Origin: Rhodobiaceae bacterium
GTDB lineage: Bacteria; Pseudomonadota; Alphaproteobacteria; Rhizobiales; TMED25
DNA: 63,417 nucleotides
Direction of reading: 5' to 3'
Assembly: GCA_018651345.1 (NCBI GenBank)
Contig: JABIEF010000067.1
Span: 1-63,417, forward strand
A model generated the notes under the pieces. The model searched no databases, was not told the DNA's origin, and worked only from the letters and a program-made list of their open reading frames with translations. Shown here one piece after another: positions 35,899 to 37,744 of the stretch. A program made the position numbers and the translations under genes. The number at the start of each line of letters is the position of its first letter. The first letter of the stretch is position 1.

Positions 35899-36846
35899 AT
35901 GACTAGCTATCAAACAAAATTCGCAATTGAAACAAAATTATTAAATAAGACTTATCGTAATAAGAAATCTTCTACAAATAAACATGCTTTAAAAGATGTA
36001 AGTATTGAGATAGAACACGGTCAGATATATGGTTTGTTAGGACCTAACGGGGCTGGGAAATCTACATTTATAAATATATTAGGTAATCTTGTTTTAAAAA
36101 CCTCAGGGATGGCTAAGATTTGGGGTTATGATATTGAAAAGAATCCCAGAAATGCAAGATCTGCAATTGGCATAGTTCCGCAAGAATTGAATTTAGATCC
36201 ATTTTTTACTCCCATTGAAGTTTTAGAGACACAGGCAGGTTTGTATGGGGGACCTAAAAATGAAAGACATTCAATGGAATTATTAAAGACTTTAAGGTTA
36301 GAAGATCAAGCGCATGCATACGCTCGTTCATTATCTGGGGGAATGAGAAGAAGATTATTATTAGCTAAGGCAATGACACATAAGCCACCTGTTTTGGTTC
36401 TTGATGAACCAACAGCTGGCGTTGATATTGAATTAAGACATCAGTTGTGGGAATACGTTAAAAAATTAAATAAGGAGGGAACTACAATACTTTTAACAAC
36501 GCATTATTTAGAAGAGGCACAATCTTTATGTGATAGAATTGGTATTATAAATCATGGAAAAGTAGTTGCAGATGCTCCTACCAAAGATCTAATAAATAGT
36601 TTAGATAGAAAACAAGTATTGATAAAAACGGAAGAATCTTTAAATGTTTGCCCATCTTTAGATGGGGTAACCGAAGTTACGCTAGACGAAGAAAATATTT
36701 TGAACATAATTTATCAGCCCACAAAAATAGACTTTAATTATATTTTGGCTCAATTACAGGATAAAAAAATTAATATTAGAGATATAATAACAAAGGAAGC
36801 TGATTTAGAGGATATATTTCTAGAATTAACTAATACAAATGAATAA
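35899..36846 (+). CDS. ABC transporter ATP-binding protein (multidrug/ABC-2 exporter type), no permease nearby
   Basis: 315 aa. Walker A GPNGAGKST (about 50-58), Q-loop GIVPQELNLD, signature LSGGMRRRLLLAKAM (about 146-160), Walker B VLVLDEPTAGVD and the H-loop TTHYLEEAQ. The extra C-terminal domain of about 80 residues is typical of DrrA/CcmA-like ABC-2 exporters (YadG group). A permease gene normally follows; here the next genes are on the opposite strand beyond a terminator, so the partner must be encoded elsewhere. AAAGG ribosome binding site before the ATG. Confidence 0.85.
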   Translation: MTSYQTKFAIETKLLNKTYRNKKSSTNKHALKDVSIEIEHGQIYGLLGPNGAGKSTFINILGNLVLKTSGMAKIWGYDIEKNPRNARSAIGIVPQELNLDPFFTPIEVLETQAGLYGGPKNERHSMELLKTLRLEDQAHAYARSLSGGMRRRLLLAKAMTHKPPVLVLDEPTAGVDIELRHQLWEYVKKLNKEGTTILLTTHYLEEAQSLCDRIGIINHGKVVADAPTKDLINSLDRKQVLIKTEESLNVCPSLDGVTEVTLDEENILNIIYQPTKIDFNYILAQLQDKKINIRDIITKEADLEDIFLELTNTNE

Positions 36847-36864: not shown

Positions 36865-36899
36865 AAAAAAGCCAAGTCTAATTAAAGACTTGGCTTTTT
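36865..36899. terminator. bidirectional intrinsic terminator
   Basis: AAAAAGCCAAGTCT - AATTAA - AGACTTGGCTTTTT: a perfect stem with six-base loop, with T-runs on both strands. It ends the ABC ATPase transcript on the plus strand and the small hydrophobic gene at 36918 on the minus strand. It is among the clearest terminators in the window. Confidence 0.92.
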
Positions 36900-36917: not shown

Positions 36918-37133
36918 TTATTTTAGTGTGTTCATAACTATTAAAGCTGCGATTACACCAATCAGTCCTGCACCTGAGAATTGATTAATAAGATCAATTA
37001 GGTTGCCTGCAACGTTTGCGTTAATAAATGCAAGAGCATCAGGAAATAGAATTTGTAAAACTACTCCTAAGCCTACAACAACTAAAGCAACGTCAATACC
37101 GCTTTTCAGCATACTTGTTAAAGATGATAACAT
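36918..37133 (-). CDS. small hydrophobic membrane protein, paralogue A of a tandem pair
   Basis: 71 aa. Short amphipathic N-terminus (MLSSLTSMLKSGID), a first hydrophobic helix (about 15-29) ending in VVLQILFPDAL, then a 'NVAGNLIDLINQFSGAGLIG' segment and a second helix (about 55-68). It aligns along most of its length with the protein encoded just upstream (LQxLFxD, GNIxxLxxQF, GLxGxIAAxxV). GGGAGAA sits before the ATG in the same context as in the paralogue. It has its own extended -10 promoter and ends at a strong terminator. No signal peptide, no named family that I can assign; a membrane oligomer, holin-like or pore-forming role is only speculation. Confidence 0.7.
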   Translation of the reverse strand: MLSSLTSMLKSGIDVALVVVGLGVVLQILFPDALAFINANVAGNLIDLINQFSGAGLIGVIAALIVMNTLK

Positions 37134-37173
37134 TTTATTCTCCCATTAGTTTTTTAAAAAAGTTAAGCAAAAT

Positions 37174-37182
37174 ATTATAGCA
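37174..37182 (-). promoter_or_regulatory. extended -10 promoter for small hydrophobic gene A
   Basis: On the minus strand TGCTATAAT, a perfect TATAAT with the extended TG motif, lies about 40 bases before the start codon of the 71-aa gene and inside the gap between the two paralogues. No good -35 is visible, which is normal for extended -10 promoters. It suggests the downstream copy is transcribed independently. Confidence 0.55.
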
Positions 37183-37234
37183 CACAAGATTTAATTAGCA
37201 GTGCACCATAAACCGAAAAAATTAGCAATCCAAC

Positions 37235-37468
37235 TTATTTACGCACAATAAGATATGCAACGACTCCTGCAGCAATTATGCCAACAAGCCCTTCGTTACC
37301 AAACTGTGTTACTAAACTACCGATGTTTCCAAGAATATCTATTCCGAAGAACATGACGAAACTATCGCCAAATAAAACTTGGAGTAAGGTCATTAGTGAA
37401 ACAAGCCAAAGAACCATTTCAAGAGCACTTGATAGAGTTCCTTTTAATTTGTCTAATAATGCTGTCAT
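37235..37468 (-). CDS. small hydrophobic membrane protein, paralogue B of a tandem pair
   Basis: 77 aa from the ATG at 37468. An upstream in-frame ATG at 37480 overlaps the GGGAGAAG ribosome binding site and is unlikely to be used. Layout matches its neighbour: amphipathic start (MTALLDKLKGTLSSALEMV), hydrophobic helix to TLLQVLFGDSF, then IDILGNIGSLVTQFGNEGLVG and a final helix ending in VRK. The spaced GN...QF.n.GLvGiIAA motif shared by both copies seems to be the conserved core. The duplication is old enough for about two-thirds of positions to differ. Function unknown. Confidence 0.7.
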   Translation of the reverse strand: MTALLDKLKGTLSSALEMVLWLVSLMTLLQVLFGDSFVMFFGIDILGNIGSLVTQFGNEGLVGIIAAGVVAYLIVRK

Positions 37469-37543
37469 TACTTCTCCCATTTTTTAAAACTATCATAAGA
37501 AAAAATTATCCATGATAGAATCACTATGTAAAAGTGTAATTAG

Positions 37544-37560
37544 TGACTAAAAAATAGTCA
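37544..37560. repeat. palindrome TGACTA-N5-TAGTCA, possible operator
   Basis: A perfect six-base inverted repeat with an AAAAA spacer, overlapped by a second inverted repeat TCACTA (37521-37526)...TAGTGA (37541-37546). It lies about 75 bases upstream of small hydrophobic gene B and about 185 bases before the divergent SDR gene, in a 264-base gap that otherwise holds only A/T-runs. Could bind a dimeric regulator; chance occurrence in AT-rich DNA is possible. Confidence 0.3.
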
Positions 37561-37744
37561 AGTGATTAAAAAAACCACACTTTCAGTTTTTTTTAAATTG
37601 AAATAGTTGATAAATAATTAATAAAATTTTTAATTAAGTTTCTATAATTATTATTATTGTAATGATCTAAGTTAATTTTTCTTTCATAAAATTTTAAAAA
37701 CCCTTTATATTAGATATTTATTTATAATTTTATTTTGGTGATAT

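Follow-up and report, generated by a model that had tools for sequence, protein, structure and literature searches.

Genes A and B, two neighbouring genes on the reverse strand of the window (the whole stretch of 63,417 nucleotides analysed here), belong, on sequence evidence, to a new and unnamed family of a known type of object, the small two-helix membrane protein. Comparison of family members reveals two unusual features: diverged paralogues have been kept paired in several lineages, and the gene has been taken up by T4-like marine phages at four positions. As a tentative possibility, we propose that in planktonic Alphaproteobacteria the pair forms a so far unnamed membrane assembly of two subunits, which are diverged hairpin paralogues of 70-80 aa, and that uncultured T4-like phages carry the gene at several positions as an auxiliary gene, where it may maintain or reprogramme the membrane of the infected cell. 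Retention of the pair over long evolutionary distances and uptake of the gene by phages imply a role in fitness. Annotation readily overlooks small membrane proteins. Pfam, NCBIfam and PHROGs do not recognise this family, although a widespread marine clade has it fixed, roughly one in ten of the alphaproteobacterial genomes sampled carries it, and no fewer than 80 viral contigs of marine origin contain it. Its loci provide a defined set for studying which features of the host membrane phages depend on.

Layout, conservation and expression signals of the gene pair

The source genome comprises 1.53 Mb in 79 contigs, and its nearest named relatives are OCS116-cluster/Hyphomicrobiales marine MAGs and single cells. 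The two genes, as read from their ORFs, are as follows.

37235..37468, reverse strand: gene A, the A-type paralogue, first in the unit, encoding a predicted two-TM membrane protein of 77 aa
36918..37133, reverse strand: gene B, the B-type paralogue, second in the unit, encoding 71 aa

A preliminary description of this DNA had read the locus as a tandem pair of small hydrophobic paralogues with common LQxLFxD and GN...QF...GLxGxIAA motifs. This was borne out: both reading frames and both motifs are present, BLASTP aligns the two proteins at 37% identity over 67 aa (E 3e-12), and their Smith-Waterman score of 117 compares with 31 +/- 6 (maximum 68) for 2000 shuffles of B. By these alignments A and B are true paralogues. 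Both carry a net charge near neutral, with lysine plus arginine against aspartate plus glutamate standing at 4 versus 5 in A and 2 versus 3 in B. The preliminary description had also pointed to sister genomes as a check, and both genes were found in each of the 14 genomes that were searched within the same GTDB family (the OCS116 cluster of marine Alphaproteobacteria). Between genera, B retains 90% and A 78% identity, compared with 67% for the flanking ABC ATPase and 64% for the flanking short-chain dehydrogenase, so that the pair is more conserved than the genes around it. Substitution rates (B, dN 0.059 and dN/dS ~0.05; A, dN 0.163 and dN/dS ~0.13; dS above 1) indicate protein-coding genes under strong purifying selection. 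The ATPase gene (35899-36846, forward strand) is of the ABC-2 type and convergent with B, and the ORF list shows no permease beside it; the order ABC ATPase, B, A, short-chain dehydrogenase is also kept in a sister genus (L225).

Single-chain models of both proteins were made with AlphaFold2. The model of A has helices at residues 2-33, 35-41, 45-58 and 61-75 (pLDDT 86, pTM 0.55), and that of B at 2-29, 41-54 and 57-70 (pLDDT 86, pTM 0.57). The two models agree in predicting a long first helix, made up of an amphipathic start and TM1, followed by an amphipathic helix and a hydrophobic TM2 that begins with an invariant GLxG; the hydrophobic moments peak in the first ten residues and near residues 40-50. 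The earlier reading of A and B as small, hydrophobic, two-helix membrane proteins is thus supported at the level of prediction. Foldseek/VIA searches with the two models returned no PDB match and, among viral models (BFVD), a best E of 7.7 that is not credible; since short helical hairpins are poorly discriminated, this absence of structural relatives is not evidence of a new fold. In the wider family the core takes the form LQ[IV]LFG...PF.GDVVGNL...LG..GLVGLIA, and the consensus of 64 members runs from an amphipathic start with W through L-T-E-x-G-L-x-L-I-A-L-G-I-V-L-Q-I-L-F-G ... P-F-x-G-D-V-V-G-N-L-x-x-L-x-x-x-L-G-x-x-G-L-V-G-L-I-A; the C-terminus is basic in most members. Across these 64 sequences G56 and G59, both in TM2, are invariant, and A21 (91%), F36 (91%), an acidic residue at position 14 (91%), Q27 (81%) and N44 (78%) are well kept.

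The signals that surround the two genes were located by sequence, folding and alignment.

37533..37561, reverse strand: promoter-like element of A, TTGACT-17-TACACT, within the invariant block TTTAATCACTTGACTATTTTT (promoter scan and ten-genome alignment)
37490..37518, reverse strand: leader (5' UTR) hairpin CTATCAT...ATGATAG before A (compensatory changes, folding z)
37472..37478, reverse strand: ribosome-binding site GGGAGAA of A, conserved in sister genomes
37170..37215, reverse strand: A-B intergenic hairpin, its 3' arm including TGCTATAAT (covariation, folding z)
37138..37144, reverse strand: ribosome-binding site GGGAGAA of B, invariant in ten genomes
36866..36899, no strand assigned: strong intrinsic terminator common to B and the convergent ABC ATPase gene (14 pairs)

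The ribosome sites that had been described for both genes lie 3-4 nt 5' of each ATG, and the signals as a whole are compatible with good expression, as had been suggested. The independent expression of B did not stand. The sequence TGCTATAAT, described as a perfect extended -10 promoter, is literally present before B (37182-37174, reverse strand), but its TATAAT is confined to the window genome, the nine aligned sisters having TGTAAT, TGTAAA or TATAAA, and the promoter scan found no promoter at this site. An independent promoter for B is unsupported because, in addition, TGCTATAAT forms the 3' arm of a covarying hairpin, in which 96.6% of cells are paired versus 36-63% when slid, with 10 doubly changed cells versus 3.9 in shuffles and a folding z of -3.2. 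A single A-B transcript with an internal stem therefore appears the better reading. The conserved, promoter-like sequence sits before A and not before B: ten genomes have in common TTTAATCACTTGACTATTTTT (with a single base changed in one of them), a -10-like element and ATAGTGATTCTAT, and the surroundings of the -35 element are invariant. A regulon search on the invariant promoter stretch found its exact 19-mer AATCACTTGACTATTTTTT once in the genome and nowhere else in it. The leader hairpin shows compensatory changes at two of its seven pairs, with 98.6% of cells paired versus 40-66% when slid (z -3.0). An AAGTGAT...ATCACTT repeat at the -35 element was ruled out as an RNA hairpin for want of covariation, and is therefore perhaps an operator; in most OCS116 genomes three boxes of the AATCACT/AGTGATT type flank the invariant TTGACT (37480-37620, reverse strand), and these boxes are perhaps a candidate operator. 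The terminator, which the preliminary description counted among the clearest of the window, is very strong (14 pairs, -20.6 kcal/mol, z -6.2), but B and the ABC ATPase gene converge on it, and with flanks rich in A and in T it would serve the ATPase gene equally. Rfam searches of the region gave sub-threshold matches around the terminator only.

Distribution of the family and age of the pairing

A nine-member alignment found relatives in MAGs named as Rhodospirillaceae or Rickettsiales and in Acidiferrobacteraceae/Arenicellales-type Gammaproteobacteria, where the carriers are a few MAGs; it also matched viral contigs in IMG/VR, 143 in all, and 80 of these were retrieved. Of 385 alphaproteobacterial genomes drawn evenly, 41 (~11%) gave a match to a 26-member profile, and the phylum sample, many of whose genomes came from groups already searched, gave one weak match besides the window's own genome. 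A match in genome G085 (L038) was spurious. The statement that no known family has this motif held in Pfam, NCBIfam, PHROGs and PDB sequences, which, like PADLOC, gave no convincing match to single proteins or to alignments of up to 64 members; one DUF5708 match to a single member (E 0.00097) was treated as chance among 64 scans. No PADLOC defence-system model, as would mark an anti-phage or toxin-antitoxin membrane effector, matched seven members at E up to 1, the family was not found by tblastn, at the thresholds used, in 50,697 GenBank phage records or in PLSDB plasmids, and a literature search found nothing on it. Around 50 cellular loci were surveyed, with the immediate neighbours read for most, and no conserved cellular neighbour was seen beyond the OCS116 family and its close relatives.

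In the family tree, which is limited by few columns and leaves 18 of 62 inner branches open, the A-type and B-type sequences form separate clades (support 100/100 and 99/93). Both clades are represented in OCS116, in the Rhodospirillaceae/Rickettsiales-named MAGs and in G552, and in all of these genomes one A and one B are found adjacent, with gaps of ~40-150 bp; the order B-A occurs once, in L064. The A-B pair is judged to be ancient because separate, well-supported A and B clades recur, adjacent, in distant Rhodospirillaceae-type genomes; it may alternatively have spread between lineages by transfer as a unit.

A further clade has a diverged partner, C, which lies 250-340 bp downstream of the main copy at ten loci and joins the family by profile comparison (98% probability, E 2e-13). 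All nine class-sample genomes with a strong match to C also have the main gene. Partner C was placed as follows.

L217:5142-5390: partner C
L218 near 2328: partner C
L219:4587-4814: partner C
L220, downstream of the main gene: partner C

The consensus of C contains ...LLLG.xAGxFVxSVAxNVxxF...; it is unannotated, and in several genomes the main profile is not sensitive enough to detect it. Further tandem duplicates are present at L192, L193, L194 and L210, and two separated copies in genomes G425, G555, G590, G652 and G729. At least about 20 of the 41 genomes have two members. Pairing is not obligatory for the family, since about half of its genomes have a single detected member.

Copies in T4-like marine phages

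The family is present in at least 80 marine viral contigs, which are T4-like where checked. The phage copies group in a single clade (94/89), whose sister is the gammaproteobacterial sequence (both together 99/97) and which is nested among cellular sequences. In contig L080 PHROGs identified clamp loader, translation repressor, dUTPase, Hsp20, endolysin and DNA polymerase genes around the family member, a gene order that is that of a T4-like replication region. The polymerase of L137 is 52% identical to those of cyanophages, and the group is distant from cultured phages, since the major capsid protein of L097 shares 60% identity with its counterpart in Pelagibacter phage HTVC008M. Within the 80 contigs the gene is preceded by dUTPase (37), the major capsid gene (17), a phosphoribosyltransferase (16) or a ThyX-like gene (7, this neighbour being assigned by our own reading of the ORF); most of these neighbours belong to nucleotide metabolism. 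T4-type late promoters are rare 5' of the phage copies, except in the seven loci of the ThyX context. Beside the gene in L138, L125 and L107 are ammonium-transporter-like, BMP-lipoprotein-like, ThyX, phosphoribosyltransferase and Fe-S-assembly-like genes (partly by our own ORF reading). Two small proteins of these phages that lie near the gene and have no confident family (L080:2707-3015 and L107:3293-3778) are other holin candidates; that of L107 resembles GTA_holin_3TM, below threshold only.

Proposed function and relation to known systems

Amongst the suggestions in the preliminary description, a small membrane oligomer is the best. We regard it as plausible, if short of probable, that A and B are two subunits of a small, non-lethal inner-membrane assembly whose benefit is borrowed by phages. 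Both ends of each chain would face the cytoplasm, and the small-residue face of TM2 (GLxGxxA) would pack chain to chain, such that A and B, at high copy, could together form a mixed ring, patch or gated pore. One A-B transcript may supply both subunits, the leader and intergenic hairpins setting its stability and the A:B ratio. The assembly would support the membrane in its energised state or help membrane proteins to pack, and the one-gene form in T4-like phages may keep or imitate its function during infection. Consistent with this are the occurrence of the pair in 14 of 14 family genomes at dN/dS 0.05-0.13 and with conservation above that of flanking genes, the recurrence of the A and B clades, one each and adjacent, in distant genomes, the separate clade with its own divergent and homologous partner C, the invariant G56 and G59 in TM2 along with the well-kept A21, acidic residue 14 and Q27, the agreement of the two AlphaFold2 models, and the nesting of a phage clade from T4-like genomes among cellular sequences. 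Against it stand the pTM values of only 0.55-0.57 with no structural relative found, the single detected member in about half of the family's genomes, the lack of a conserved cellular neighbour that hints at a pathway, and the fact that phages do well with one copy.

Cyanophages with photosystem genes offer an analogy for a phage-supplied subunit. A and B could in the same way serve a larger membrane complex that is already known (respiratory, transport or translocase) as small subunits or as assembly factors, with phages supplying a version of their own to sustain the energy supply during infection. The strong constraint on both proteins is consistent with this, as are the neighbours, which reveal no function of the pair's own, and the fact that the T4-like marine phages with this host-type gene carry other metabolic genes too, an ammonium-transporter-like one among them. 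We nevertheless consider it unlikely, though it carries a real chance: large complexes are nearly universal, whereas this family occurs in ~11% of the alphaproteobacterial genomes sampled; no conserved synteny with any complex was seen at ~50 cellular loci; and the formation of pairs within the family itself points to self-assembly.

The phage copies could also be class II-type holins that permeabilise the membrane at lysis, with the cellular pairs acting as holin/antiholin-like controllers of leakage. The size of 70-80 aa, within the roughly 65-95 aa of class II holins, the two hydrophobic helices and the basic C-terminus of most members fit, and the topology of a class II holin would fit too if both ends lie inside, an orientation read from charges only. 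In the dUTPase context an endolysin of the M15 type follows a few genes further on. A weak profile hint, a sub-threshold PHROG match at E 0.2, is also the best holin match in PHROGs and Pfam, and PHROGs recognises no holin. The cellular genes, however, are fixed and constrained, lie outside prophages and are not beside endolysins or other lysis genes, and the phage clade sits inside the cellular family. The phage gene occupies four positions, mostly after dUTPase, phosphoribosyltransferase or ThyX, with an endolysin in none of the tabulated first neighbours, and late promoters are rare outside the ThyX context. The holin comparison made in the preliminary description therefore survives as to size, and perhaps as to predicted topology, but not as to genomic setting; for the cellular pairs a holin role is unlikely, for the phage copies it is unproven, and the reading as a whole is improbable.

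That A and B are divergent VirB2/TrbC-like pilins of type IV secretion is very improbable: weak matches to DUF2976 (9 of 64 members, best E 0.004), T4SS_pilin (2 of 64, best E 0.008) and TIGR03745 (best E 0.023) fall short of threshold and share their lists with many unrelated TM families, the ~50 cellular loci surveyed (immediate neighbours read for most) revealed no gene of the VirB3/VirB4 type nearby, and there is neither an evident cleavable signal nor a Foldseek match. The leaderless bacteriocin pair of the preliminary description, secreted against competitors, is scarcely credible, since small, helical, hydrophobic, tandem proteins with good ribosome sites would suit it, but the genes are fixed in every family genome at dN/dS ~0.05, near neutral rather than cationic, found in phages, and flanked, across the family, by no conserved gene for export or immunity.

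Compared with known systems, the two-subunit assembly proposed here resembles the class II holins and pinholins of phages (S21, HP1 Hol; PMC7312051) in its chains of ~70-80 aa, two hydrophobic helices, ends that may both lie inside and presence in phages, but it differs in having no sequence match to them, in forming a constrained cellular family outside lysis modules and in having phage copies at four positions. Short chains, two hydrophobic helices and weak sub-threshold profile matches are held in common with the VirB2/TrbC pilins and DUF2976 (TIGR03745), from which A and B differ in lacking type IV secretion neighbours and an evident signal peptide, the matches not being significant. Pmp3/YqaE are small, stress-type, two-TM proteins that are short, hydrophobic and membrane-resident, often with several copies per genome. 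The A/B family is likewise short, hydrophobic and predicted to be membrane-resident with two helices, often in several copies per genome, but has no Pfam similarity to them and differs in its motifs, GLxG and GDVVGNL. Unlike auxiliary host-derived genes of T4-like marine phages such as hsp20, the family is absent from the 50,697 GenBank phage records at the thresholds used; like them, it is a host-type gene, found as one clade in uncultured T4-like myoviruses and in one context beside hsp20 itself.
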